The position numbers and the translations under genes were made by a program. A DNA stretch of 64,000 bases. Origin: Thiomargarita sp. Lineage in GTDB: Bacteria > Pseudomonadota > Gammaproteobacteria > Beggiatoales > Beggiatoaceae. The DNA is taken from NCBI GenBank assembly GCA_020721005.1, contig DYNP01000008.1:1-64000 (forward strand), written 5' to 3'. Numbering within the stretch: position 1 is the first letter of the stretch; the number at the start of each line of letters is the position of its first letter. Below the pieces are notes generated by a model. It was not told the origin of the DNA. It saw only the letters and a list, made by a program, of their open reading frames with translations, and ran no database searches. Of the stretch, positions 8,670-59,008 are shown in pieces.

Positions 8670-8733
8670 CTCTTAAGCAACCTGGATTGTTCAGTGAACA
8701 GTGAATAGTTCCAAAATGTGAAGGAAAATTAAA

Positions 8734-9744
8734 TCAGTCTCTTTTTAAATTGGCCCACACGGCTGTCTTTAAGTTTTTCAAATCGGCCGCTTTGAGGTTA
8801 AGGGCCAAATGTATCATGTTGAGCAGTTGATCGTTGGCCAATTCTGTTTCCTTTCGTTTGTTTAAAAAGTCATCCACCCACTGTTCCACTTCTTTAGACA
8901 ATTGATGTTGCTTAAAATGAGCCTTGAGAATCTCAATCAATTGGGTTTTATCGGGAGGCTCTATTTCCAACTGCAGGCATCGACGCAAAAATGGGGGAGG
9001 AAAGTCTTTTTCCCCGTTGCTGGTCATGATCACCACCGGAAAGATCTGACAACGCACCTTTCCGTTTTCAATGTCCACGTGTCCCCCATCATGTAAGGGA
9101 ACTTCAATTTGCGCTTGCTTATCCGAACGCAGTAATTCTGGAATCTCAAACTCACCTTCCTCAAAGATATGGAGCAGATCATTGGGCAAATCAATGTCAC
9201 TTTTGTCAATTTCATCGATCAGCAATAACCGAGGTCGGTCCCGGGCAGCAAAAGCGGTTCCCAAAGGACCCAATTTTAAATAATTGCCAATACTTGGTGC
9301 CGTGTGATTTTCCTTATGAAGAGCGGCATCTTGCAAACGAGCCACCGCATCGTAATGATACAAACCCTCCTGTAAAGTAGAGCGAGTGGTGATTGACCAC
9401 CGCAACACCTTACCCAACCCCAATTCATAGGCCACAGCATAGGCCAAGGTGGTCTTGCCCGTACCTGGCTTACCGGTCACCAATAAGGGACGACGCAGGT
9501 ACAAAGCCGCGTTGACTCGTTCTATTTCATTGAAATTAGTGCGATTTGGCCGAAACTCAGCCCCTCGGTTCCTGCAAGAATCATCATTTGGAATACTATT
9601 CTTAGGAAGATCTTTGTACTCAGCAGGGTTCTCAATAAAGTTACGCCAGGGAGGAGGTTTGGGCAATCTTTTAATGGCATCTGGATTGGGGTGAGCCGTG
9701 CCTTGATAAATCCACCAATCCGGTGGCGAAGTTGGTTTTGACAT
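8734..9744 (-). CDS. MoxR-type AAA+ ATPase of the conflict operon
   Basis: A 336-residue AAA+ protein of the MoxR group. Walker A is GKPGTGKT at 91-98, Walker B is LLLIDEID at 173-180, and a sensor-like MTSNGEKDFPPPFLRRC lies further on; a lid domain follows at about 270-336. MoxR ATPases typically act with vWA proteins to remodel or activate partners using ATP. Here the vWA-like gene follows at 64 bp and the nucleosidase precedes at 21 bp on the same strand, so the three proteins probably form one complex. The N-terminal 70 residues (WWIYQGTAHPNPD...PPPWR) are an extension seen in conflict-system MoxR proteins. Confidence 0.9.
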   Translation of the reverse strand: MSKPTSPPDWWIYQGTAHPNPDAIKRLPKPPPWRNFIENPAEYKDLPKNSIPNDDSCRNRGAEFRPNRTNFNEIERVNAALYLRRPLLVTGKPGTGKTTLAYAVAYELGLGKVLRWSITTRSTLQEGLYHYDAVARLQDAALHKENHTAPSIGNYLKLGPLGTAFAARDRPRLLLIDEIDKSDIDLPNDLLHIFEEGEFEIPELLRSDKQAQIEVPLHDGGHVDIENGKVRCQIFPVVIMTSNGEKDFPPPFLRRCLQLEIEPPDKTQLIEILKAHFKQHQLSKEVEQWVDDFLNKRKETELANDQLLNMIHLALNLKAADLKNLKTAVWANLKRD

Positions 9745-9765
9745 AAAACAATCCTTAGAGAATGA

Positions 9766-11397
9766 TTATTTGGGAGCAGTATAAGGGGAAAATTTTGAAA
9801 AGGGAGGCTGCCTGTCCGGATTGTCCCATAACAGAGACAGTCCCTGCAGTCCTTGTGCACGCAATTGCTTGAGTTGCTTGGGCAACTGGGCAAAGGTGAG
9901 CGACTGGACAGCAGCCAATTGCTCATAAACTGGTTGGCAGTTTTGAGTGTCATCCGTTGGCCACAACAGGAATGGAGGACCCCATTGAACACATTTGAAA
10001 ATGACGGCAGGCATTTCAGATGGAAAATCAAGCACAAACAAAGCAATGGGCTCATCGCTCAAGTTCGGCCCAAAAACAGATTTACATTCTTCCCCGTTGG
10101 AACAACACCGATGTTGATAGCCGGTCTTTAATGGGTCATCTAAACGCTTCTTATATTTACTCCAACAATTTGAAAGACGACGAAACATATCGTCATTCTC
10201 AAATCTTTCTGTAGACCGTATGACTAACTGATAAGCTGCACCCAATTTTTCTTCCAACTCAACATCAATAATCCAATCCCCAATTGGCTCTTTCAACAAT
10301 TCTTTGGGTAAAAAGACTTCAATCACAAAATCCTCGTCACAATGACATTTTTTATCAGCAAGTATTTTATTTATCGACTTATTGATTTCAATGGGTAACT
10401 CTGACTTCTTATGGCGTTGAGGTCCGTGAACTTGATAGAGTGACGTTTTATGATCAGTTAACCAGACTTGAAGGTCATATGAATCCTGATTGCGATCCTC
10501 CTGCGACAACTTGACAATCAAGGATGAAACCAGCTTCTGTTCCCCTGAGTCTGCGCCAGGTTGTTCCTCCTTATCATGGGCAATGCTAGATAGAGGCTCC
10601 AACTCATCCAACATATCCAACATGGCAAAAGCAAAAGCCGCTGCATTTTGGGCAGCGATGGGTTGCCATGTTTTGTCATGACTGGCAGTTTTAGACAACA
10701 GGTCAGAAATGCCTCGAATAACAATACCATCAACCGCTTTATTGACATCAACCGCGTTTAGAAAGCCCAATCCCTCCATTTCCACTGCCAACACATCATT
10801 CATATGCTTCCGCAAGAAGTCATGAAGTTGGGTGCGTTCAGTAACCACTTGCTCACCACCCGCAATTGGGGCTATAAAACTTTGTAGATTATCAATTGGC
10901 CGCTCCGATGCTCGTTTGATTTTGGACACCCAATTCTCCTTTTTCACACGAGGAGCACATTGCACCAATTCATGGCTGGAACGATAAACATCTCCTCGAG
11001 GATAAAAAACCTCTTTGGAAAATAATTTGGGAAAGTATTCAGAAAGTACCCCCTGATTTACGGACTTTCCTTTTTCATAGCCTCTCACAAAGCTGGCAGC
11101 CACTACATCTCCCAATGACACGTCTTTTACTCCACCGGCAATCCCCACAAAAAAGGCATAGTTGGGTTTAAAATGCTCAAAAGCCCGCTCTGCTTCAATA
11201 CCAGATTTGTTATTGCCATCACCTGTTTGCGTCACTATAATGCGCCATTTCTGCTTGCTCGATGAATAATTACCCACATCATAAACAGTTCCTTTATACT
11301 TTTTATGGGTAACCTCTGCCAAATGCTCAACCACAGCCTCACGCTCAAGTGGAAGCGCCGTCAAAAACACCACTGTAGGAAGTGATTTTTCCGTCAT
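9766..11397 (-). CDS. Nucleoside phosphorylase/nucleosidase fused to a VMAP-C-like domain
   Basis: A 543-residue protein from the ATG at 11397, chosen because AGGAGGGTTTA stands directly before it; an in-frame ATG at 11421 lacks such a site. Residues 1 to about 260 are a PNP/UDP-phosphorylase-like fold related to MTA/SAH nucleosidases (VVFLTALPLEREAV, FVGIAGGVKDVSLGDVVAA, AVEMEGLGFLNA, VIRGISDLL). Residues about 290-543 contain WLTDHKTSLYQVHG, IEVFLPKELL, YQLVIRSTERF and a C-terminal GPPFLLWP, resembling the C-terminal domain of vWA-MoxR-associated proteins (VMAP-C). In such ternary systems the N-terminal domain is the variable effector; here it would cleave a nucleoside or nucleotide signal or deplete a metabolite. 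It is the first gene of the operon. The effector role is inferred from family context. Confidence 0.8.
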   Translation of the reverse strand: MTEKSLPTVVFLTALPLEREAVVEHLAEVTHKKYKGTVYDVGNYSSSKQKWRIIVTQTGDGNNKSGIEAERAFEHFKPNYAFFVGIAGGVKDVSLGDVVAASFVRGYEKGKSVNQGVLSEYFPKLFSKEVFYPRGDVYRSSHELVQCAPRVKKENWVSKIKRASERPIDNLQSFIAPIAGGEQVVTERTQLHDFLRKHMNDVLAVEMEGLGFLNAVDVNKAVDGIVIRGISDLLSKTASHDKTWQPIAAQNAAAFAFAMLDMLDELEPLSSIAHDKEEQPGADSGEQKLVSSLIVKLSQEDRNQDSYDLQVWLTDHKTSLYQVHGPQRHKKSELPIEINKSINKILADKKCHCDEDFVIEVFLPKELLKEPIGDWIIDVELEEKLGAAYQLVIRSTERFENDDMFRRLSNCWSKYKKRLDDPLKTGYQHRCCSNGEECKSVFGPNLSDEPIALFVLDFPSEMPAVIFKCVQWGPPFLLWPTDDTQNCQPVYEQLAAVQSLTFAQLPKQLKQLRAQGLQGLSLLWDNPDRQPPFSKFSPYTAPK

Positions 11398-11458
11398 TAA
11401 ACCCTCCTGAAAAAAAACCATGATACTCGTCTACTTAATTACCAGAAAAATAATCCTC

Positions 11459-46208: not shown

Positions 46209-46873
46209 GAACTCTAGCAAAAGTAAATGATGCGATAAAGATGAGATAGGAAAAAACAAAAGGAAAATCCCCTTTAGAGTGGAGGCTCTAGAAGATATAT
46301 TGGAGTGGAGGCTTCAGCCGGAAGATTGGAGTAGAGGCTTCAACCGGAAGATTGGAGTGGAAGCTTTAGCCGGAAGATTGGAGTAGAGGCTTTAGCCGGC
46401 AGCTTGGAGTAGAGGTTTTAGCCGGAAGATTGGAGTAGAGGCTTTACCGTAGCTTGGAGTGGAGGCTTTAGCCGGTAGGTTGGAGTGTGGAGGCTTTAGC
46501 CGGCAGCTTGGAGTGGAGGCTTTAGCCGGTAGATTGGAGTCAAGGCTTCAGCCGGAGTGGAGGCTCATGTTGGAGTCGAGACTTTAAGCCGGCTAGCAGT
46601 CGGCCCTTACCATTTGTGTATGTGGAGTGATGCCTACGGCTGGCCGGCTAAAGCCTCCACTCCAATCTACCGGCTAAAGCCTCCACTCCAAACTACGGTT
46701 AAAGCCTTCACTCCAATCTTCCGGCTAAAGCCTCCATTCCAACCTACCGGCTAAAGCCTCCACTCCAACATGAGCCTCCCCTCCAACATGAGCCTCCCCT
46801 CCAGCTAAAGCCTCGACTCCAACGTATCTTAACTGAAGCACACCTCTCACCTTTTCATGATCGCAAAAAATCC
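46209..46873. mobile_element. Family-1 MITE-like element with two-way array
   Basis: It begins GAACTCTAGCAAAAGTA after TA (46207-46208), then ATGATGCGATAAAGATGAGAT, about ten units in reverse orientation (TTGGAGTGGAGGCTTTAGCC), a central segment with CTACGGCTGGCCGG, and forward units. The right end has the CTTAACTGAAG, CTTTTCATGATCGC signature but a decayed terminus that merges with the stop of the OmpA-like gene. No coding sequence is credible inside. Confidence 0.75.
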
Positions 46874-48558: not shown

Positions 48559-49131
48559 GACCTCTTGCAAAAGTATGCGATCATGAAAAAATGAGAGTTG
48601 CACCTCAGTTAAGATACTCCGAAGTCGAGGCTTACTTTGGAGTAGAGGCTTTAGCCGGAAGATTGGAGTAGAGGCTTTAGCCGGAAGATTGGAGTGGAGG
48701 CTTTAGCCGGCTAACAATAGGCCCTTGCCATTTGTGTATGTGGGGTGATGCCTACGGCTAACCGGCTAAAGCCTCTATTCCAACCCACCGGCTAAAGCCT
48801 CTATTCCAACCCACCGGCTAAAGCCTCCATTCCAACCCATCGGCTAAAGCCTCCATTCCAACCCATCGGCTAAAAAGCCTCCATTCCAACCCATCGGCTA
48901 AAGCCTCCATTCCAACCCACCGGCTATAAAGCCTCCATTCCAACCCACCGGCTAAAGCCTCCATTCCAACCTACCGGCTAAAGCCTCCACTCCAACTTAC
49001 CGGCTAAAGCCTCCACTCCAAACTTCCGGCTAAAGCCTCTACTCCAATATGAACATCTACTCTAACGGGGACTTTCCTTTTATTTTTTCCTATCTCATCT
49101 TTATCGCATCATTATACTTTTGCAAGAGGCC
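48559..49131. mobile_element. Family-1 MITE-like element, complete copy (573 bp)
   Basis: The left terminus GACCTCTTGCAAAAGTAT (48559) and the reverse complement of the right terminus, GGCCTCTTGCAAAAGTAT (ending 49131), form 18-bp inverted repeats with one mismatch. TA flanks both sides (48557-48558 and 49132-49133), as after insertion at a TA target by IS630/Tc1-mariner-type transposases. The inside holds three reverse units, a CTACGGCTAACCGG centre and about eleven forward units whose linkers vary. No ORF is credible. Confidence 0.85.
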
Positions 49132-49253: not shown

Positions 49254-50855
49254 ATGAGATTGATTTTAGCCTGCTGGCTGTTAGGATTAAGCATAGGGGT
49301 TATAGCCGAACCTCGTTTTGCCTTGGTAATTGGAAATAAAGACTATCCTAAAGGAGGTCTATTTTTACCTTTAACCAATCCACTACACGATGCGCAGGAT
49401 ATGGCAGAACTGCTGCGAACATACCAATTTAAAGTGCTTCCACCGGTGTTAGATGGGGATCAGCAAACCATGGAGGAGGCCATTCAGAACTTTGTAGACC
49501 AATTACCCCAAGAGGCAACCGCCTTACTGTACTATTCCGGACATGGAGTGCAAGTACAAGGGGTAAACTACTTGATTCCAGTAAAATATGTTTTTCGAGA
49601 CGCTGCAGATGTGCAATATAAAGCCGTCAATGTTCATCAAACCTTAGAAAAACTGAAAAATTCAGATCCAAAAGATCGTCGTTCAAAACGGGTAAATATC
49701 CTGATTTTAGACGCCTGTTTAGAAAATCTTGAACAGCGTAAAGGCTTTGAACGCAAGGGTTTAGCAGATATGAGTGTCACCGGAGTAATTGTGGGTTATG
49801 CCACCAGTCCGGGAGACTTTTCTTATGGCAATCGAATGGGACGTAACAGCGTGTACACCAGCAAATTGTTGGAAGTATTGAGAACAGGAGGACACCTGCC
49901 TATTGAACGAGTATTCAAACAAGCCCGTATAAAAGTTGCTGAGATCACTGACCAGATTCAAATACCGGCAACTCAAGACGCACTGATGGGAGATTTTTGT
50001 TTTGACGGCTGCGTAGAAATTCCACAGCCACCGCTGACTCCACAAGCACCAGTAGTTCCACGAGAGAAAGTATTCCAAGACCCCTTGAAAGATGGAGGCT
50101 TGGGTCCTAAAATGGTGTGGATTCCCAAAGGCTCATTTAATATGGGCAGTGACAAGGGGGATGATGATGAAAAACCGGTGCACAAAGTGACTATAAATTA
50201 CGACTATGCCATAGGTCAGTATGAGGTCACCCGTGGACAATTTAGACAATTTGTGAATGCGACTCAGTATCAAACTGAAGCTGAGCGCGGAGATGGGTGT
50301 TGGGGTTGGATAGGGACTGACTGGAAACAGCGTCCAGATTTTAATTGGAGAAATGCAGGATTTGTGCAAACTGATCAACATCCGGTATTGTGTGTCAGTT
50401 GGAACGATGCCAAAGCTTATGCTCAATGGTTGGCAGAGCAAACCGGCAAACCCTATCGATTGCCGAGTGAAGCAGAATGGGAATATGCATGTCGGGCCGG
50501 AACAACGACCGCTTATTCATTTGGGGATGATGCAAACCAATTGGGAAACTATGCGTGGTACGGAGAAAATTCGGGAAGTCAAACTCACCCGGTAGGAGAA
50601 AAGAAGTCGAATGCCTTTGGATTGTATGATATGCACGGAAATGTTTGGGAATGGTTGGAAGATGTGTGGCATGAGAACTATCAAGGAGCGCCAGTTGATG
50701 GAAGTGCGTGGATGAGTGGGAGAACTTCTGATGCGCATCCCCTTCGTGGGGGTTCTTGGTACAACGATGACAATTGGTTGCGTTGTGCCTACCGTGATTG
50801 GTACCTTACAACTGGCGGGGACATCAACGGGGGTTTGCGTCTTTCCAGGATGTAA
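49254..50855 (+). CDS. Secreted caspase-like protease with FGE/C-type-lectin tail; DGR target 1
   Basis: A 533-residue protein. A signal peptide (1 to about 18, LILACWLLGLSIGVIA) sends it to the periplasm or beyond. Residues 20-250 are a peptidase C14 (caspase-like) domain: RFALVIGNKDY, catalytic His97 in YYSGHG and catalytic Cys155 in ILDACLEN. A Pro-rich linker covers 255-272. Residues 283-533 are an FGE/SUMF1-like domain (MVWIPKGSFNMGS, YEVTRGQFRQF, LPSEAEWEYACRAGTTT, GLYDMHGNVWEW). Residues 494-532 are encoded by the DGR variable repeat. The FGE catalytic Cys pair is missing, so the tail is probably a ligand-binding surface that could control the protease; this role is inferred. avd, RT and TR follow on the same strand. 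Confidence 0.92.
   Translation: MRLILACWLLGLSIGVIAEPRFALVIGNKDYPKGGLFLPLTNPLHDAQDMAELLRTYQFKVLPPVLDGDQQTMEEAIQNFVDQLPQEATALLYYSGHGVQVQGVNYLIPVKYVFRDAADVQYKAVNVHQTLEKLKNSDPKDRRSKRVNILILDACLENLEQRKGFERKGLADMSVTGVIVGYATSPGDFSYGNRMGRNSVYTSKLLEVLRTGGHLPIERVFKQARIKVAEITDQIQIPATQDALMGDFCFDGCVEIPQPPLTPQAPVVPREKVFQDPLKDGGLGPKMVWIPKGSFNMGSDKGDDDEKPVHKVTINYDYAIGQYEVTRGQFRQFVNATQYQTEAERGDGCWGWIGTDWKQRPDFNWRNAGFVQTDQHPVLCVSWNDAKAYAQWLAEQTGKPYRLPSEAEWEYACRAGTTTAYSFGDDANQLGNYAWYGENSGSQTHPVGEKKSNAFGLYDMHGNVWEWLEDVWHENYQGAPVDGSAWMSGRTSDAHPLRGGSWYNDDNWLRCAYRDWYLTTGGDINGGLRLSRM
50733..50848 (+). repeat. DGR variable repeat 1 (VR1)
   Basis: A 116-bp block aligned without gaps to the TR at 52413-52528. All 15 differences fall on A in the TR (seven to T, seven to G, one to C). 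Two conserved ends flank it: GCGCATCCCCTTCGTGGGGG at the 5' side and GGGTTTGCGTCTTTCCAG at the 3' side. It codes for the last residues before the stop, leaving RGGSW, LRCA and GLRLS constant. Confidence 0.97.
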
Positions 50856-50932
50856 ATCTCAGCACTGTGTCCCTGTAACCCTTTATTCTTTTACTCTTTT
50901 TTCTCTTTTCCTTTTACTCTTTTCTTTTATAT

Positions 50933-50948
50933 CCCCCGCTTGCGGGGG
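50933..50948 (+). terminator. GC hairpin downstream of VR1
   Basis: CCCCCGC/GCGGGGG, a perfect 7-bp stem with a TT loop (or a 6-bp stem with a CTTG loop), 85 bp after VR1 and 47 bp before avd. Stem-loops near VR 3' ends help retrohoming in the Bordetella phage DGR, but there they are only a few bases away. It may instead be a processing or termination hairpin. Confidence 0.5.
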
Positions 50949-50994
50949 TCGCGACATTTTTTGAAAATTTACCCCTACATTTTATATGTAAATA

Positions 50995-51333
50995 ATGCAA
51001 CAAACCCCTCAAGCAGTACAACACTGTCATGAAATACTTCTGTGGATGATTCCACACCTGGACAAATTTCCACGTGTACGTCGATTTACCTTAGGTGAAC
51101 GCCTAGAAACACGATTACTTGAAGTATTAGAAAATTTAGTCGAAGCCGCTTATACTAAAAACAAAAAGGCACAACTCACTGAAGCCAATCGTCAATTAGA
51201 AGTTATCAGACACCTGTGGCGATTGAGTTTTGAACTGCAAGTTATCTCTAACCAAACCTACGAACATGGAGCTAAATTGGTCAACGAACTGGGAAAACAA
51301 ATTGGTGGCTGGTTAAAAATAATCGAACCATAA
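50995..51333 (+). CDS. avd: DGR accessory variability determinant (Avd-like) protein
   Basis: A 112-residue, mostly helical, basic protein (MQQTPQAVQHCHEILLWMIPHLDKFPRVRRFTLGERLETRLLEVLENLVEAAYT). It matches the four-helix-bundle Avd family that forms a pentameric ring, binds the RT and template RNA, and is needed for mutagenic cDNA synthesis. It lies between VR1 and the RT, 11 bp before the RT start. Confidence 0.93.
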   Translation: MQQTPQAVQHCHEILLWMIPHLDKFPRVRRFTLGERLETRLLEVLENLVEAAYTKNKKAQLTEANRQLEVIRHLWRLSFELQVISNQTYEHGAKLVNELGKQIGGWLKIIEP

Positions 51334-51344
51334 GGTAATATACA

Positions 51345-52409
51345 ATGAATTTGATTGACAATGTGTGGTCTGACATCATCTCTTTTGACAACTTGCTACT
51401 GGCTTACCGAAAGGCGCGACGCGGCAAACAACACAAGATGAATGTCGCAACGTTTAGCCTGAACTTAGAATCTGAATTATTCACCCTACAACAAGAATTA
51501 CAAACAGGAAACTATCAACCCTCTAATTATCACCTATTCACCATTTATGAGCGCAAACCACGGGTTATTGCAGCGGCCAAATTTCGAGACCGAGTAGTGC
51601 ACCATGCCTTACTCAACATCATTGAGCCGCTGATAGATAAAGAATTTATTGCTGATTCCTATGCCAATCGCAAAGGTAAAGGCGTACACCGTGCAGTTGA
51701 TCGCTATCAAAATTGGGCGAAACGTTACCGTTACGTGCTAAAAATGGACATATTGCAATATTTTCCATCCATCGACCATATTCTGCTCAAAGACAAGCTG
51801 AAAAACTATATTCAAGAAGTTAAGGTACTGAATTTATTTAATAAAATAATAGATACTTCCCCTGTGGTTGCTATCCAACCTCAGTGGTACGAAGGAGATG
51901 ATTTACTGACTCCTGTAGAACGTCGTAAAGGTATTCCTATTGGCAACCTCACCAGCCAATTTCTCGCAAATTTATACCTAGATGACTTCGATGATTACGT
52001 TACTGAGATACTAAAAATCCCTGCTTATATTCGCTACGTTGATGATTTTGTAATACTCACTGATGATAAAAAACAACTTCATTGGATGCGAGAACAAATT
52101 CGCAACTGTCTTGCAATTCAACGTTTATGCTTACACCCCCGTAAGGCACATATCACACCGACCAGTCAAGGTTTAGATTTTCTTGGCTACCGAGTCTTCC
52201 CTACCTTTCGTCGACTACGTAATGACAATGGACACCGTTTTGCCCGCCGATTGCGTCATCTTTCTCAAGCTTATCAACAAAACAAAGTAACTTGGAAAAC
52301 TGTGAATTCAAGTATTCAAAGTTGGATAGGTCACGCGAAACATGCAGATACTGAAGGTTTGCGTAAAAAAATCTTTTCTGATACTATTTTAAACGTGGAA
52401 TTCACCTAA
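51345..52409 (+). CDS. DGR-type reverse transcriptase
   Basis: A 354-residue RT. Motif A is MDILQYFPSID (first catalytic Asp at 135). The DGR-diagnostic motif 4 is IGNLTSQ at 199-205, where retrons and group II introns have QGxxxSP. The catalytic YVDD is at 231-234. There is no maturase, endonuclease or integrase domain. It copies the TR RNA with adenine-specific errors into cDNA that replaces the VRs. The TR starts three bases after its stop. Confidence 0.97.
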   Translation: MNLIDNVWSDIISFDNLLLAYRKARRGKQHKMNVATFSLNLESELFTLQQELQTGNYQPSNYHLFTIYERKPRVIAAAKFRDRVVHHALLNIIEPLIDKEFIADSYANRKGKGVHRAVDRYQNWAKRYRYVLKMDILQYFPSIDHILLKDKLKNYIQEVKVLNLFNKIIDTSPVVAIQPQWYEGDDLLTPVERRKGIPIGNLTSQFLANLYLDDFDDYVTEILKIPAYIRYVDDFVILTDDKKQLHWMREQIRNCLAIQRLCLHPRKAHITPTSQGLDFLGYRVFPTFRRLRNDNGHRFARRLRHLSQAYQQNKVTWKTVNSSIQSWIGHAKHADTEGLRKKIFSDTILNVEFT

Positions 52410-52412
52410 AAA

Positions 52413-52528
52413 GCGCATCCCCTTCGTGGGGGTTCTTGGAACAACAATGACAATAGGTTGCGTTGTGCCAACCGTAATAGGAACAATACAACTAACAGGA
52501 ACAACAACAGGGGTTTGCGTCTTTCCAG
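52413..52528 (+). repeat. DGR template repeat (TR)
   Basis: A 116-bp donor sequence with 34 adenines, many in AAC or AAT codons when read in the VR frame. Such codons can become any of many residues when A is randomised. In that frame it would read RGGSWNNNDNRLRCANRNRN and so on. After the last shared base TR continues TCTGG whereas both VRs continue GATGT. No start codon or stop of its own: it is a template, not a gene. Confidence 0.97.
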
Positions 52529-52740
52529 TCTGGCTGTGTGTCTCAGAGTTGTAACGTTTAAGGACGTAACGAGTGTAGCATGCAGTTATCCATGAGTGAA
52601 TTTCCGTGCCTTTTAAGGAATAAATAGCAAAATAGCTTGTCATGGATGACACCCTACAACTTCGATTTTTTTCCCTGATTTTTCCTCGTCCCCACCAACA
52701 GCGTTACCAATTTCATAATCATCATCGACCGTAACTATAG

Positions 52741-52869: not shown

Positions 52870-53609
52870 AAAAAAACCTTCCCCATTTAATCAGCCCCTT
52901 CTATCTTCCCCTCTCCTCCCTATTCAAATCATACAATTGATCAACCCTCCATTCCAACTCCCGACAGTCTGTGCCTTATCTAACCGGAACCTTACCCAAC
53001 CCTGAATTTAACACGCCCAAAATGTATTTAAGAGAACTCGACTTTTGGTACAATTCAACAATATTTACATTCAAAGTTGGCAATGACAGCTTACATAAAA
53101 TATTTATCTGAACATGATGAAAGGGGACAATGTGCATACCATTGACCAGAATAATTTTTTCTAAAATATTCCCCGTTTTGTCGCATTTAGGTAACTGGCG
53201 ATGAATTAGTAATAAAGTTAAGCGTTCCCCTTGTTTAAATAACAAAATGATTGGTATTGTAAATATCCTAAAGGTTTTTAGGGTAAATACTACAAATATT
53301 ACAAGTTAATACATTTTATCTAATGCCAATAAGAGTCACTAACTTGCTGATTTATTCCCTTAACTCCGTCTGAACAGTGAGTATTTTTGGCTAAAACATT
53401 AACTTGTGATAATATTAGAATGTTTAAACACACTGTAGGTTAATCATCCCTTTTTTTACAGACCTATAACATGATCTTACAATGTAGCCCCAAATAAGAT
53501 ACTCTTTTTTCCCTATCGGATCAGCGAGTAAAGTATCCCTCTGCTCTTGAATAAGCCTATAAATGGTTTACTTTTCAACCTCCTGAATACCTATAACCGA
53601 GGAACTTCC
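52870..53609. other. AT-rich intergenic region before the hydrogenase operon
   Basis: The region holds one 89-codon minus-strand ORF (52976-53245) without recognisable family or ribosome site; I do not call it a gene. The rest is AT-rich and probably carries the hydrogenase promoter, but I see no convincing sigma-70 or sigma-54 site. GAGGA lies just before the hynS ATG. Confidence 0.4.
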
Positions 53610-54698
53610 ATGTTAAAAACACCTACTATTGGAGAAAGTTTACGTAACGAAGGGATCAGTCGACGGGAATTCATCAAATTTTGCGCTACAGCCGCATCTT
53701 TGATGGCCCTACCTGCCACGATGATCCCTAAAATTGCGGAGGCCCTGTCCAATACTCCACGTCAATCAGTTATCTGGCTCTCCTTTCAAGAGTGCACTGG
53801 ATGTACAGAAGCCCTCACTCGAGCCCATGCTCCCAGTTTAGAAAACTTGATTTTCAACACCATTTCCCTGGATTACCATCATACTTTACAGGCTGCTTCT
53901 GGTACTGCTGCAGAAGAAGCCAGAGAACAGGCGATGCACAAGCATCCGGGAGAATACCTACTGGTAGTTGACGGCTCTATACCCATAGGTAATCCAGGCT
54001 ATTCCACCATTGCCGGTATCAGCAATCAGGACATGTTCCTAGAAGTTGCCAAACAAGCGAAGGCAGTTATCGCAGTGGGCACTTGTGCTGCCTTTGGAGG
54101 ATTGCCTAAAGCAGCACCAAATCCTACAGGTGCGGTAGCTGTGCAAGATCTTTTACGGGATAAACCTCTGGTCAACGTACCTGGATGTCCTCCTATTCCA
54201 GTAGTCATCTCCAGCATTGTTGCACATTATATCACCTTTGGAGGTCTACCCGATTTAGACAATCTCAAACGTCCACTGCCCTTTTTTGGACAAAATATTC
54301 ACGACCGTTGCTATCGGCGCCCCTTTTATGAGCGAGGCCAATTTGCCGAAACTTTTGACGACGAAGGCGCCAAACAAGGCTGGTGTCTCTACAAACTGGG
54401 CTGCAAGGGACCAGTCACTTACAACGCTTGTGCCCTCTTCAAATGGAATGATGCCGTCAGCTTTCCCATCGAAGCCGGACATGGCTGCCTAGGCTGCTCC
54501 GAACCCAACTTTTGGGATGCAGGCAGCTTCTATGATGCCCTGTCCATTCCCCTGCCTGGAGCTGCTAAAGCCGCTGCCTATGCGGGAATTGCTGGAACTG
54601 CCGTGGGAATTGCTGCCGGGGCCTTAAACATGTACAAAAAATCCACAGCCATTCAACAACGTGAAGTGGTCACTGTCGACGACTTGGAGAGAAAATAA
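53610..54698 (+). CDS. hynS: [NiFe] hydrogenase small subunit (Isp-type, group 1e-like)
   Basis: A 362-residue Fe-S subunit. The ATG at 53610 follows GAGGA; an in-frame TTG at 53547 is less likely. A Tat signal SRREFIKF lies at 17-24. Cluster ligands are seen in FQECTGCTEAL and VPGCPP (proximal), DRCYRR and WCLYKLGCKG (distal) and YNACALF, GHGCLGCSEP (medial). A C-terminal hydrophobic segment (AAYAGIAGTAVGIAAGALNMY) anchors it in the membrane on the periplasmic side. isp1, isp2 and hynL follow, the order known from Thiocapsa. Confidence 0.93.
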   Translation: MLKTPTIGESLRNEGISRREFIKFCATAASLMALPATMIPKIAEALSNTPRQSVIWLSFQECTGCTEALTRAHAPSLENLIFNTISLDYHHTLQAASGTAAEEAREQAMHKHPGEYLLVVDGSIPIGNPGYSTIAGISNQDMFLEVAKQAKAVIAVGTCAAFGGLPKAAPNPTGAVAVQDLLRDKPLVNVPGCPPIPVVISSIVAHYITFGGLPDLDNLKRPLPFFGQNIHDRCYRRPFYERGQFAETFDDEGAKQGWCLYKLGCKGPVTYNACALFKWNDAVSFPIEAGHGCLGCSEPNFWDAGSFYDALSIPLPGAAKAAAYAGIAGTAVGIAAGALNMYKKSTAIQQREVVTVDDLERK

Positions 54699-54700
54699 CC

Positions 54701-55363
54701 ATGGACAACTATGCAGACTTTCTACTGTGGGTCAGAGGACCCGCCTTTCACATCGCCTTAGCCATCTTCCTATTTGGCATTCTCCTACGATTCTTCGAAA
54801 TCTTCAGTCTGGGTCGCCGAACTGAATATGCCGAAGTTCGTGGCAATGCCTTTTTGGGAGGTATGCGCACCCTCTTCACCCGTTTTCTCCCTGAAAAAAC
54901 CACCCTAAAACGCATCCTGTTCCTCGTCATTGCGGGCTACCTATTTCACCTGGGCTTCTTCATCACCTTCCTATTCTTTGACCCCCATATTGTTCTCTTC
55001 AAATCTGCCCTTGGTTTCTCCTGGCCTGGACTTCCTGCTCCCATCATCAACATTGTCACCCTGATCAGCCTATTGGTCATGATTGCACTGCTCATTTACC
55101 GCCTCAACCACCCGGTATTGCGCCTCCTCTCGGGCTTTCAAGACTATTTGGCCTGGACCATCACCTTTTTACCTCTGCTCACTGGCTATCTAGCCTTTCA
55201 CCACATGATTCACCCCTATCCCTTAATTCTCGCCCTTCACATTCTCAGCGTCGAACTGCTCATGATCCTCTTCCCTTTCACCAAACTCATGCACACCTTC
55301 ACCTTCATCATCGCTCGCTGGACCACCGGTGCCAGAGCCGCTCAAAAAGGAGTTAGCCTATGA
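54701..55363 (+). CDS. isp1: Isp1, membrane cytochrome b-like subunit
   Basis: A 220-residue protein with about five membrane helices (about 15-33, 66-88, 105-126, 140-160, 170-195), related to NarI/DsrM-type cytochrome b. Histidines inside helices (for example HIALAIFLFG, HLGFFITF, HHMIHPY, LHILSVELL) may bind heme b. It would carry electrons between the hydrogenase and the quinone pool or Isp2. It lies 2 bp after hynS and overlaps isp2 by 4 bp. Confidence 0.88.
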   Translation: MDNYADFLLWVRGPAFHIALAIFLFGILLRFFEIFSLGRRTEYAEVRGNAFLGGMRTLFTRFLPEKTTLKRILFLVIAGYLFHLGFFITFLFFDPHIVLFKSALGFSWPGLPAPIINIVTLISLLVMIALLIYRLNHPVLRLLSGFQDYLAWTITFLPLLTGYLAFHHMIHPYPLILALHILSVELLMILFPFTKLMHTFTFIIARWTTGARAAQKGVSL

Positions 55364-56628
55364 CTGCCGCCACTTTTGAACGCGGCTACAATGCCCTAAA
55401 ACAACAAATCACAGCCTCCACCGCTGCCTTCTTTCAAAGTTGTGTCAGTTGTGGCATCTGCGCCGAAGCCTGCCTATTTTACACTGAAACTGGAGACCCT
55501 CATTACACTCCCATCTACAAACTAGAACCCATGCGTAAAGTTTGGGAACGGGAATACACCGTATTGGGCAAACTCAAAGCCCTCCTAGGTCTCAGCTCCA
55601 AACTCACCGATGAGGAACTGGCCAAATGGCAAGATTACATCTACAGCGGTTGCACCCTGTGTGGTCGCTGTTCCCTAGTATGTCCGGTAGGCAACGATCT
55701 GGTCAGTCTCATCCGTAACATCCGCGAAGGCATGGCTGCTGCCGGTCATGCTCCCAAGGGACTCATTGGCGCTTCCCAACGCGCAGTAAAAATAGGCAGT
55801 CCCATGGGCGTCAAACTCCCTGCCCTAAAAACCCAGATCAAACACATTGAAGAAGACACCGACCTTAAAATACCCCTCGATCAAGTCGGAGCAGAATACC
55901 TGGTCCTTCTCTCTTCCATGGAAATCGTCAACTTTCCTGAATACCTAGAAGCCATTGCCAAAATCATGAGACAAGCCGGCAAAACCTGGACCCTCTGCTC
56001 AGAAGCCTTTGAAGCCACCAATAGCGGCATTCAAATCGGATCCAGCGACATTGCCAAAGAATTAGTCAGCCGAATAGTCACTGCTGCCGAAAAATTACAA
56101 GTCAAAACCGTCATCAGTCCCGAATGCGGCCATGCTTACACCGCCATTCGTTGGGAAGGTCCCAATCTGATCGGACGTCCATTTACCTTCAAAGTCCAAC
56201 ACATCCTTGAAGTCCTAGACGAACTTCGTCAACAAGGCAAACTCAAAACCCAAGGCATGGAAGAAGCTCGTTTAACCTTCCATGACCCCTGCCAACTGGT
56301 CAGACGCGGCGGAGTCATTCAACAACCTCGTAACCTGCTCAACATGGTTGCCAAAAACTTCGTAGAAATGGAAGACCACGGTCAAGTCAACTGGTGTTGT
56401 GGAGGAGGCGGCGGACACAGTGCCATTGAAGAAGCCCATTCCCTACGAGTCAAAATTTTCCAACGCAAAAAATCCCAACTCGATGCCCTTAAAGTTGACA
56501 CCCTAGTCACCGCCTGCGCCAACTGCCGAATTGTCATCGAAGAAAACCTCGAAGAATATGAAATGGAACTGCCGGTAGTGGGACTCACGGAAATGATTGC
56601 GGAACACCTCAGCGAAGAAAAATCATAA
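55360..56628 (+). CDS. isp2: Isp2, HdrD/DsrK-like iron-sulfur protein
   Basis: A 422-residue cytoplasmic Fe-S protein. Two [4Fe-4S] motifs lie at the N-terminus: C28, C31, C34, C38 (CVSCGICAEAC) and C98, C101, C104, C108 (CTLCGRCSLVC). Two CCG-like domains follow (ECGHAYTAIRWEG...FHDPCQLVRRGG...WCCGGGGGH and TACANCRI), as in HdrD and DsrK, suggesting disulfide or special 4Fe-4S chemistry. With Isp1 it links periplasmic H2 turnover to cytoplasmic electron or sulfur metabolism. Confidence 0.9.
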   Translation: MTAATFERGYNALKQQITASTAAFFQSCVSCGICAEACLFYTETGDPHYTPIYKLEPMRKVWEREYTVLGKLKALLGLSSKLTDEELAKWQDYIYSGCTLCGRCSLVCPVGNDLVSLIRNIREGMAAAGHAPKGLIGASQRAVKIGSPMGVKLPALKTQIKHIEEDTDLKIPLDQVGAEYLVLLSSMEIVNFPEYLEAIAKIMRQAGKTWTLCSEAFEATNSGIQIGSSDIAKELVSRIVTAAEKLQVKTVISPECGHAYTAIRWEGPNLIGRPFTFKVQHILEVLDELRQQGKLKTQGMEEARLTFHDPCQLVRRGGVIQQPRNLLNMVAKNFVEMEDHGQVNWCCGGGGGHSAIEEAHSLRVKIFQRKKSQLDALKVDTLVTACANCRIVIEENLEEYEMELPVVGLTEMIAEHLSEEKS

Positions 56629-56723
56629 TTTTTCTTCACATTGCCCCTTTTACATCTGCATCTAATCTAAATCCCTCTCAATACTTTGGGAACTCAGTGT
56701 AAACCTTGGATTTTACCCTCACT

Positions 56724-57125
56724 ATGTCAAACTGTGCACGATTACCTGACAACTTCTCACTAGGGACTGTATTGCCAATTCTCCATGAAATTCGGCATGC
56801 CCTACATAACCTTTTGACAAAACGACAGGAAACCACCCTGGACTTGCGTAATTTACCCCTGTCCAAAACCGATCGAGAACAACTCCTTTTATTCCTTGGC
56901 AAAGGAGAAGTAACCGCTGAACTTAAAACCCTGGGACACAGTTTGATTTGGGAAACCTCTTTTTCAGGAATATGGGTTGTTGAACACTATGATGCAGATG
57001 AACACCTGTTAGGTCAATACCTGGAAATCACATGGATGCCCATGATTCTCAACTCCCAATCTCAGGACATTGAAACCAGTTTAGCAACATTGCAAACCCA
57101 CTTAACTCAGTTTGGGAACGAATAA
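56724..57125 (+). CDS. HupH/HyaF C-terminal-like hydrogenase maturation protein
   Basis: A 133-residue protein from the ATG at 56724; a TTG at 56706 is the longer option. The part DREQLLLFLGKGEVTAELKT...IWETSFSGIWVVEHYDADEHLLGQYLEITWMPMIL matches the C-terminal domain of HupH/HyaF hydrogenase expression/formation proteins, here as a single compact domain. It probably assists maturation of the small subunit. It sits between isp2 and hynL, an insertion into the usual isp2-hynL junction. Confidence 0.8.
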   Translation: MSNCARLPDNFSLGTVLPILHEIRHALHNLLTKRQETTLDLRNLPLSKTDREQLLLFLGKGEVTAELKTLGHSLIWETSFSGIWVVEHYDADEHLLGQYLEITWMPMILNSQSQDIETSLATLQTHLTQFGNE

Positions 57126-57268
57126 CTTTGGGACCGCTACAAACCATCCCTAATTTCCAAAAAATTCCCCATTTAAAACCTCTTGAAATCAACAATTTAT
57201 AACCAAAAGTTTAAAGTTTAACTTTCCTGAGTTTTCCCACTCACATCCGATTAACAGGAGAACCACTT

Positions 57269-59008
57269 ATGACCCAACGCATTGTTGTCGATCCCATCAC
57301 CAGGATCGAAGGCCACCTACGCATAGAAGCCCAAATGGCTGCCGACAACAAAACCATTGAAGCTGCCTACTCTGCTGGTACCATGGTTCGCGGCATCGAA
57401 ATTATCCTGCGCAACCGAGACCCACGGGACGCCTGGGCCTTTGCCCAACGCATTTGTGGAGTATGTACCCTTGTACACGGCATGGCTTCCATTCGGGCTG
57501 TTGAGAACGCCCTCAACTACCCCATTCCACCCAATGCCCAACTCATTCGCAACCTCATGATCGGCGCCCAATACATACACGATCATGTCATGCACTTCTA
57601 CCATTTACACGCTCTTGACTGGGTAGATGTAGTCTCAGCCCTCAGTGCTGACCCCAAAGCCACCACTGACCTTGCCCAATCCCTCAGCAACTATCCCAAA
57701 TCCTCCCCCGGCTATTTTTCAGACGTCCAGAAAAAACTCAAAAACTTTGTCGACAGCGGCCAACTGGGCATTTTTGCCAATGGCTATTGGGGACACCCTG
57801 CTTACAAACTTCCTCCCGAAGCCAATCTCATGGCCGTTGCCCATTACCTAGACGCCTTAGTGTGGCAAAGAGACGTCGCCAAACTACATGCCATCTTTGG
57901 CGGCAAAAATCCCCATCCCAACTTTGTAGTGGGAGGCATGCCCTGCGCCATTGACCTCAACTCTGATTCTGCCCTCAACGCCAAAAAACTCTCGCAAGTT
58001 CAAGATATTATCAACAATATGCGGGAATTTGTGGAACAAGTTTATCTTCCAGACACCCTGGCCATTGCCAGTTTCTACAAAGACTGGGGCAGCCAAGGAG
58101 AAGGACTAGGGAACTTCCTCAGCTATGGCGACTTTCCAGAAAATGGCAGTGCTGACCCTGCCACCTTTCTCATTCCCTCTGGAGTCATTTTAAATCGCGA
58201 CCTTAGCACCATCCACCCGGTTGACCTCCATGATCCCGAACAAATTCAAGAATTTATTGCCCACGCCTGGTATGATTACACTATTGGAAAAGACAAGGGA
58301 CTTCATCCTTATCAAGGGGAAACCACCTTCAACTACACCGGTCCCCAACCTCCCTATCAACAATTGGATGTTGAAAAAGACTATTCTTGGCTCAAATCAC
58401 CACGTTGGAAGGGACCAGATGGGCGTTTTCATGCCGTTGAAGTCGGCCCACTGGCTCGGGTCCTATTACTCTATGCCAAAGGTCATGCAGGCACCAAAGA
58501 ATTAGTTGACCGGGCTCTGGCTCAACTCCAAATTCCCATCACCGCCCTCTATTCCACATTGGGACGCACTGCAGCCCGCACCCTAGAAACCAAAATCATC
58601 GGCGACGCCATGCAAGGCTGGTATGACCAACTCATCGCCAACATCAAATCAGGAGACACCCAAACTTTCAATGAAACCCTTTGGGATCCAAGCACTTGGC
58701 CCCAACAAGCCAAAGGTGTCGGTTATATGGAAGCCCCTCGCGGTGCACTGGCCCACTGGATTGTCATTGAAAATGGAAAAATTGCCAACTATCAAGCCGT
58801 AGTTCCCAGCACTTGGAATGCCGGTCCCCGGGACCCCGAAGGGCAGGCCGGCGCCTATGAAGCAGCTTTACAAGGCCATGTTTTGCACGATCCCCAACAA
58901 CCCATTGAAATTTTACGCACTATTCACAGTTTCGATCCTTGTATCGCCTGCGCAGTTCATCTTAGCAATCACCAAGGAGAAGATCTGTTACAAGTCAAAG
59001 TGCGATAA
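57269..59008 (+). CDS. hynL: [NiFe] hydrogenase large subunit
   Basis: A 579-residue catalytic subunit. Ni-Fe ligands are C63 and C66 in RICGVCTLVHG and C558 and C561 in DPCIACAVH. After H564 there is a 15-residue C-terminal peptide that a specific endopeptidase should remove after metal insertion; no such protease gene is in the window. MTQRIVVDPITRIEGHLRIEA is the typical N-terminus. AGGAG precedes the ATG by 7 bp. The enzyme can oxidise H2 or reduce sulfur or protons; direction is not decided by sequence. Confidence 0.95.
   Translation: MTQRIVVDPITRIEGHLRIEAQMAADNKTIEAAYSAGTMVRGIEIILRNRDPRDAWAFAQRICGVCTLVHGMASIRAVENALNYPIPPNAQLIRNLMIGAQYIHDHVMHFYHLHALDWVDVVSALSADPKATTDLAQSLSNYPKSSPGYFSDVQKKLKNFVDSGQLGIFANGYWGHPAYKLPPEANLMAVAHYLDALVWQRDVAKLHAIFGGKNPHPNFVVGGMPCAIDLNSDSALNAKKLSQVQDIINNMREFVEQVYLPDTLAIASFYKDWGSQGEGLGNFLSYGDFPENGSADPATFLIPSGVILNRDLSTIHPVDLHDPEQIQEFIAHAWYDYTIGKDKGLHPYQGETTFNYTGPQPPYQQLDVEKDYSWLKSPRWKGPDGRFHAVEVGPLARVLLLYAKGHAGTKELVDRALAQLQIPITALYSTLGRTAARTLETKIIGDAMQGWYDQLIANIKSGDTQTFNETLWDPSTWPQQAKGVGYMEAPRGALAHWIVIENGKIANYQAVVPSTWNAGPRDPEGQAGAYEAALQGHVLHDPQQPIEILRTIHSFDPCIACAVHLSNHQGEDLLQVKVR

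Follow-up and report, generated by a model that had tools for sequence, protein, structure and literature searches.

A diversity-generating retroelement with seven variable repeats in a Thiomargarita-family genome, and the conserved RNA structure adjoining its template repeat

The window, a stretch of 64,000 nucleotides of a Thiomargarita sp. genome (GCA_020721005.1, contig DYNP01000008.1), carries what, judged from its sequence, is an intact chromosomal diversity-generating retroelement (DGR), whose template repeat (TR) is matched by seven variable repeats (VRs) across the 4.05-Mb genome, two of them in the window, and is followed by a structured RNA domain. That the element is intact, that its RNA consists of the TR and the structured 3′ domain, and that one template diversifies seven targets is, taken as a whole, very probable. 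It would be a well-resolved example of seven unlinked, sensor-like genes being varied from a single template, in an organism akin to the giant sulfur bacteria. The DGR itself is of a known kind, already in print in the searched parts of the literature (PMC7159879; PMC10907252). The RNA matters more: cDNA initiation has been worked out, as far as seen, in one phage element.

The core of the element lies on the forward strand in the order target, avd, reverse transcriptase (RT) and TR. VR1, identified by repeat search and VR/TR alignment, occupies the 3′ end of target gene 1 (50733-50848), and the TR, placed by its alignment with VR1 and by the seven VRs of its own genome, spans 52413-52528. The first-pass annotation had described the two as 116 bp each, gapless, with all 15 mismatches at TR adenines, which realignment reproduced, and the pair was also recovered independently as repeat D3 in a blind repeat search. 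The changes comprise seven A>T, seven A>G and one A>C, and their confinement to the 34 adenines of the TR has a hypergeometric P of 7e-10. An Avd-like gene had been placed between VR1 and RT, and this avd (accessory variability determinant; 50995-51333, +; PF22296, 2e-18) scores 104.4 bits, passing the curated NCBIfam cut-off of 80 (DivGenRetAVD, NF033474, 3.5e-30). DGR reverse transcriptases are marked by the motif IGxxxSQ. The RT reading frame (51345-52409, +; PF00078, RVT_1, 2.2e-21) is fully open and holds the IGNLTSQ and YVDD motifs assigned to it earlier, with GNLTSQ and YVDD retained in all nine aligned RTs (that of the window and eight others). As had likewise been stated, and as the coordinates confirm, the TR starts three bases past the RT stop codon. 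Promoter and terminator scans returned 8 promoter-like sites (6.3 in shuffles) and 3 terminator-like sites (2.1 in shuffles), hardly above the shuffled level.

All seven VRs sit at the C-terminal end of an FGE/C-type-lectin domain (PF03781 in 7/7 targets), which is joined to differing modules such as caspase, kinase and TPR. Genome-wide, 10 FGE genes were detected, 7 of which bear a VR. The FGE domains of the targets resemble each other, as if they had been copied from gene to gene or shuffled among them. Target gene 1 (49254-50855, +) combines an N-terminal caspase domain (C14; PF00656, 1.2e-30) with a C-terminal FGE-sulfatase/C-type-lectin domain (PF03781, 7.2e-62), and its start, judged by eye, resembles a signal peptide. 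Target gene 2 (6336-8669, −), with a C-terminal FGE-sulfatase domain and an N-terminal region devoid of Pfam matches, including one to vWA, is adjoined by an AAA ATPase that is MoxR-like by context (8734-9744, −; AAA_2, AAA, AAA_5) and by a gene in which a phosphorylase-superfamily domain is fused to VMAP-C (9766-11421, −; PF01048, 7.3e-18; PF20028, 1.1e-26), a MoxR/VMAP gene pair presumed to be a conflict system. The VR-bearing C-type lectin domain is predicted to bind ligands, and the targets may be antigen sensors.

Pooled over the seven VRs, 125 of 129 substitutions fall on adenines of the TR, the other four lying in TR bases 1-2, past which all seven VRs are free of non-A substitutions; one VR also holds a 3-nt insertion. 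In TR positions 4-116, 125/125 substitutions are at A, even though A accounts for 34/116 TR bases, which gives a P of about 6e-66 if substitutions are taken as base-blind and independent. In VR2, the second VR of the window (6343-6458, −), all 15 mismatches are at TR adenines. In a Thiomargarita MAG, which belongs to the same family, the TR has its own VR in a different gene, and here the count of substitutions by TR base, which the first-pass annotation had put forward as a check in related genomes, came out in favour of adenine-directed change (9/10 at A); together with the seven VRs, this supports its claim of a complete adenine-directed DGR. Chance or composition bias as the source of the A-confined mismatches is ruled out by the hypergeometric and base-blind P values. 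The seven FGE genes could still be read as plain diverged paralogues whose A bias stems from base composition, a reading to which the similarity and apparent copying or shuffling of their FGE domains lend some colour; it is, however, wholly improbable in view of the 125 substitutions at A and of the TR-to-TR differences between the window genome and the Thiomargarita MAG, which show no A bias (1/7 at A).

A different question is whether homing continues. The element might be a recent relic in which TR, RT and Avd still look intact, although homing has ceased and the VR differences date from an earlier time. In relatives, four RT matches contain stop codons (L037, L039, L040 and L042) and some loci are decayed, and a second DGR of the same genome, on contig C40, has a TR, which overlaps the end of its RT, while no VR was found for it in that genome (40 of 130 candidates scored in one search). 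However, the RT and avd of the window are open and conserved, and neutral decay would soon erase a pattern in which seven VRs lack non-A substitutions past TR base 2, and such a relic is therefore unlikely. The element is probably active at present.

In the mechanism proposed for this element, an RNA made up of the TR and the structured 3′ domain would be bound by RT and Avd, and the RT would copy the TR, erring at A. Synthesis of the cDNA would begin near the junction of the 3′ domain and the TR, and the 3′ domain would probably be the part of the DGR RNA that loads RT and Avd and primes synthesis. Since the cDNA could replace any of the seven VRs scattered over the genome, one template would thereby diversify seven FGE/C-type-lectin proteins at the end that faces the ligand, at least one of these proteins being encoded next to a presumed conflict system.

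Conservation continues beyond the end of the TR to about 52654, and the 3′ domain, of about 130 nt (52525-52654, +), was delimited by alignment A3, RNAalifold, covariation with controls and covariance model R1. The domain, which shares the last four TR bases (CCAG), is composed of P1, a short helix, P2, a GTCCA motif, P3 and an A-rich motif, in this order and all on the forward strand. P1, P2 and P3 are drawn from RNAalifold and covariation. P1 pairs 52531-52537 with 52582-52588, and the P2 hairpin pairs 52549-52558 with 52563-52572; of these pairs, 7/7 in P1 and 9/10 in P2 are standard in the window. A conserved motif that is unpaired in the model follows at 52588-52595, reading ATCCATGA in the window and GTCCATGA in most of A3. 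The P3 hairpin (52607-52629) is formed by 52607-52612 with 52623-52629 (5/6 standard pairs in the window), and 3′ of it lies the conserved A-rich motif of alignment A3, AAATAG in the window (52630-52635). TR/VR identity stops where the RNA domain opens, at CCAG both in the window and in locus L057 and at CTAG in L048, and one base past CCAG in L047. Folded alone, the window RNA does only slightly better than shuffled sequences (z -1.88; equalled by 8/200 of them), and in the minimum-energy fold the second half is paired differently from the covariation model.

The comparative evidence comes from A3, which contains 21 sequences, the window RNA among them, and was scored over 25 pairs. In this alignment, 92.6% of cells are paired, compared to 72.1% when shuffled, compensatory double changes occur in 117 cells (31.6 shuffled), and the covariation score is 0.672, with slid controls reaching at most 0.144. 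Rfam at its gathering score gave no matches in the window, and in eight relatives it left the RNA domain unmatched, its sole match being a cobalamin riboswitch elsewhere. Applied to DGR loci outside its training set, R1 placed 15 of 16 examined matches directly behind a TR-like sequence, four of these 15 being partial matches. Among eight whole-genome matches outside training, five lie behind a TR, one behind a VR-like end, and two, assessed by eye, beside target or avd remnants. A second RNA class (alignment A5), mostly cyanobacterial, folds to the same layout and differs in sequence; model R2, built from it, fails to detect the window RNA, and a joint alignment of 58 RNAs of both classes recovered P2 and the short helix and did not recover P1 and P3. 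Behind the TRs of 23 more divergent loci outside both alignments, 12 gave no match to R1 or R2 at E up to 1. At the level of sequence, a conserved DGR RNA structure, present in many other bacteria too, was shown to remain associated with the TR.

In the window and in most TR-bearing loci, the conserved RNA lies close behind the RT gene, as would be expected if it were merely the 3′ UTR of the RT mRNA together with its terminator, separate from the TR RNA; among the 68 loci in which a TR was found, 58 have a TR core that starts between -287 and +132 relative to the RT stop. Against this, it accompanies the TR in L051, L054, L056 and L057, where TR and RT are on opposite strands, and in L127, where the TR lies upstream of the RT. 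The loci with the RT on the opposite strand or downstream rule out a plain RT 3′ UTR, and the reading as a whole is very improbable. Because of the same five arrangements, derivation of the TR RNA from the RT transcript appears to be no general requirement in DGRs like that of the window. For the window itself, the TR RNA may come from the RT transcript, as the first-pass annotation had suggested.

It is somewhat more plausible than its opposite that the 3′ domain belongs to a widespread RNA superfamily, a common scaffold of cellular DGR RNAs onto which RT-Avd is loaded and which fixes where mutagenic cDNA begins; because the domain would do both, the TR and the domain together would be the true portable DGR unit. 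The proposed superfamily would cover Proteobacteria, Nitrospirota and Cyanobacteria, with other phyla entering through weaker matches, and perhaps phages. The covariance model of a cellular DGR RNA suggests a functional RNA end and bases worth testing, can locate TRs from the RNA alone, and indicates what may need to be moved to rebuild such a DGR elsewhere. Searched titles and abstract openings describe no conserved cross-species DGR RNA structure, and no such structure is described in the searched parts of PMC12875486, PMC8867640, PMC7517822, PMC10907252 and PMC10053308. In Nodularia, a start site reported to be strong lies 199 nt downstream of an RT gene with a multi-copy ncRNA (PMC3610870).

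Among the DiGReF cassette groups, whose arrangement was judged irrelevant to mechanism (PMC3521204), the window fits group 2 (TR downstream of RT), the C40 element group 3 (TR overlapping the RT end) and the four loci with inverted TR group 4 (TR on the other strand); the searched parts of that work do not mention an RNA 3′ of the TR. The Bordetella phage BPP-1 DGR shares with the present element a structured RNA directly 3′ of the TR, Avd and A-directed homing (PMC12875486), but its order is avd-TR-spacer-RT, unlike the target-avd-RT-TR of the window. With filters off, the best R1 match to the BPP-1 spacer on the RNA strand had an E of 4.3 and R2 had no match there, which leaves homology unsupported by either model; a functional analogy with this spacer would be one of position. 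In six other phage DGRs, four of nine weak matches (E up to 2, a threshold chosen by the analyst) fall in the pre-RT interval, which makes up 2.4% of the letters searched, two of the four being one locus hit by both models; in phage DGR L180, the searched pre-RT interval lies within the annotated RT gene. As kin of the RNA domain, these matches are suggestive only.

Cyanobacterial DGRs also have CLec domains and remote targets, with variable proteins encoded at a distance from the RT (PMC7517822); their RNA class (A5) has the layout of the window RNA but another sequence. VMAP ternary conflict systems whose FGS domains are diversified by DGRs, and among whose carriers Beggiatoa is named, possess an AAA ATPase and a VMAP-C partner, like target 2 (PMC7159879). 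A ternary system of this type joins a MoxR ATPase and a VMAP protein to a vWA-type third component in one neighbourhood, whereas target 2 lacks a Pfam vWA match and its VMAP-C partner carries a phosphorylase-superfamily domain. Among the best-scoring RT relatives are MAGs of Nitrospira, Methylococcaceae and Contendobacter; cyanobacteria rank lower. The Clade-5 DGRs of multicellular bacteria, such as that of Thiohalocapsa PB-PSB1, combine RT, accessory protein, TR and several CLec/FGE-ended targets, as here, and share caspase-like and kinase domains, MoxR/VMAP ternary partners, domain shuffling and sulfur-bacterial hosts (PMC10907252). In the searched text of that report, ‘Thiotrich’ and ‘Thioploca’ are absent, Thiomargarita appears in the reference list only, and searches for secondary structure, stem loop, hairpin and noncoding RNA lead to MITE-like repeats only. 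Compared to the Clade-5 elements described in those parts, the present DGR stands out by a single TR that serves seven unlinked targets and by its Thiomargarita-family genome.

The diversity-generating retroelement (DGR) read from this DNA in the first-pass annotation was confirmed in its parts. The accessory gene avd and the reverse transcriptase (RT) gene were both found with open reading frames, and the variable repeat VR1 (50733-50848, +) and the template repeat (TR, 52413-52528), both of 116 bp, differ by 15 mismatches, 15/15 of which fall on the 34 TR adenines (P 7e-10). The pair was also recovered by a blind repeat search; the changes are A>T or A>G in 14 of 15 cases, and 33 of the 34 adenines occupy codon position 1 or 2.

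When the window's own genome (4.05 Mb, 133 contigs, window included) was searched with the TR, the TR itself and seven VRs were recovered, two of them in the window (at 50733 on the plus and 6343 on the minus strand) and the other five on contigs C96, C111, C77, C104, and C81. Summed over the seven VRs, 125 of 129 substitutions lie at TR adenines (68 A>G, 49 A>T, 8 A>C), and the four non-A substitutions are all within TR bases 1-2. A>C is under-represented (8/125), a skew attributable to the RT, to repair, or to selection. The C104 VR (L007:296-412) carries a 3-nt in-frame insertion on top of its adenine changes. In all seven targets, an FGE-sulfatase domain ends in the VR, while the N-terminal parts comprise one caspase, one Ser/Thr kinase, one TPR protein, and four without a Pfam match, one of which, target 2 (VR2, 6343-6458, -), adjoins an AAA/VMAP-C gene pair. 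The 12 FGE matches in this genome represent ten genes (one in two pieces) plus the TR of a second DGR on contig C40, and therefore seven of the ten FGE genes are targets.

Target 2, the AAA ATPase, and the phosphorylase/VMAP-C protein (6336-11421, -) together resemble a VMAP ternary conflict system; the only RTs of the DGR's type found in the genome are elsewhere. Upstream of target 1, which ends in VR1, arrays of a 26-bp repeat of the GGCTAAAGCCTC type in both orientations (46274-46807 and 48611-49060), possibly MITE-like, flank OmpA and DUF4384 genes. After the DGR comes a NiFe-hydrogenase gene cluster (53601-59008), in which the small subunit is assigned by Pfam and the remaining genes from ORFs only.

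The RT is matched at 1e-60 or better in 13 of 95 genomes, the window's own counted. Genome G023, from the same family, apparently carries the matching DGR, divided between two contig ends. Seven bases, one of them an A, distinguish its TR from the window TR; between the G023 TR and the local VR there are ten differences, nine of them at A, and this VR lies in another protein than in the window. The comparison therefore indicates that the TR drifts without A bias, that VRs change at A, and that targets are swapped. The second DGR of the window's genome (L016:6560-6735 and 6677-7801, both -) comprises an RT with 50% identity to the first, an avd also on C40, and a TR overlapping the 3' end of the RT; a search of this genome found no VR for it.

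The TR was sought from -300 to +700 of the RT stop with a pattern of our own at 97 RT loci (L079 repeats L048) and found at 68, with a core start at -287 to +132 in 58 of them; the pattern left 29 loci unresolved, in some of which the TR is known by other means. Directly 3' of the TR, about 130 nt (52525-52654, +, in the window; hereafter the RNA) are conserved across phyla. In a class-1 alignment of 21 sequences (22 before the divergent L046 was dropped), RNAalifold predicts helices P1, P2, and P3, and 17 of its 22 pairs show double changes. A hand-written 25-pair structure was compared with 500 shuffles and slid controls: paired cells reach 92.6% (shuffled 72.1), double-change cells 117 (shuffled 31.6), and covariation 0.672 (shuffled 0.257; slid ≤0.144), three scores reached by 0/500 shuffles. 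The structure derives from the same sequences, which gives it an advantage over slid controls, and the compensatory changes bear the weight. Folded alone, the window RNA outdoes shuffles only weakly (z -1.88); its minimum-energy structure is another fold, in which, within 52588-52651, the motif ATCCATGA pairs with the last hairpin region; the L049 RNA folds in the same alternative way.

The class-1 covariance model, R1, gave 22 matches (E up to 1) over 81 loci, five of which come from the training set (L079, a duplicate of a member, is counted here). Of the 17 outside training, 16 were examined, and in 15 a TR-like sequence immediately precedes the match, in Cyanobacteria, Phycisphaerae, and Chloroflexi among others; the exception has E 0.022. 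Matches to L089, L099, L103, and L123 are partial. Because these loci were selected by their RT, a DGR nearby was expected, but a position right behind the TR was not. R1 hits the window's genome once, at the training site itself. In scans of the 95 genomes and of 369 genomes of the class, run with stricter filters at which weak matches are lost, it hits the 95 at nine sites in seven genomes. Five of these are outside training: G006 and G027 behind a TR, G015:C9 behind a VR-like FGE end and, by eye, G025 behind a decayed FGE remnant and G034 next to an avd-like reading frame without a TR. Among the 369 genomes, five match, and the three new ones all do so behind a TR.

A second class, to which the C40 TR region aligns, was built from 20 sequences (fifteen cyanobacterial loci, one Blastocatellia, and four of the window genome's family; L134 left out). 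RNAalifold gives it the class-1 layout, and over 24 pairs it scores 97.5% paired cells (shuffled 85.3), 63 double changes (shuffled 16.5), and a covariation of 0.530 (shuffled 0.265; slid ≤0.135). Its model, R2, does not find the window RNA; its 16 matches (E up to 1) in 82 loci beyond training are all behind a TR (four read by eye). Both models match the same places in L106, L123, L099, L089, L178, and L179 (R2 E 3e-6 to 0.4), and R1 also matches the class-2 loci L115 and L121. R2, run on 19 whole genomes of class-2 loci, hits 18 of them, with 32 sites in all. Among the 30 sites that have a locus, 15 belong to the training set and invariably follow a TR, and the other 15 lie behind a TR (nine), a VR-like FGE end (three), or neither (three, one with a truncated TR by eye). 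Targets with the RNA directly behind their VR-like FGE end (L172:7939-8066, -, equal to G015:C9; L208; L209; L212) may carry the DGR RNA in cis or be captured TRs.

Among the 68 TR loci, 23 divergent ones were used in neither alignment; in 11 of these at least one of R1 and R2 matches the RNA downstream of the TR (E up to 1), and in 12 neither does, though by eye some of the 12 seem to show the same order of parts. A joint alignment of both classes supports only part of the layout. That the RNA is a widespread superfamily, the common scaffold of cellular DGR RNAs, is a reading we hold somewhat more likely than not, its odds slightly lowered by the 12 unmatched among the 23 divergent loci.

In L051, L054, L056, and L057 the RNA accompanies the TR on the opposite strand from the RT, and in L127 both lie upstream of the RT. 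TR/VR identity stops where the RNA begins, at CCAG in the window and L057 and at CTAG in L048; in L047 it stops one base past CCAG. At the gathering score, Rfam 15 has no match to the RNA in the window or eight relatives, and a literature search, with subscription journals outside its scope, returned no paper evidently about it. The literature already describes, for conflict systems in multicellular bacteria, DGRs whose targets carry FGE/CLec domains (PMC10907252, PMC7159879), as well as remote DGR targets and a TR behind the RT (PMC7517822, PMC3521204).

Neither model finds the RNA in Bordetella phage BPP-1; weak R1 or R2 matches precede the RT in phage DGR loci L180, L183, and L184, and BalMu-1 has the same order of helices by eye. 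A distant relationship between phage spacers and the RNA is possible. In the Bordetella phage, as described in PMC12875486, the spacer 3' of the TR folds and recruits RT-Avd, and an internal adenine primes cDNA at the TR end. Judging from its position and conservation, the RNA would, like that spacer, recruit RT-Avd and prime cDNA at the TR end.
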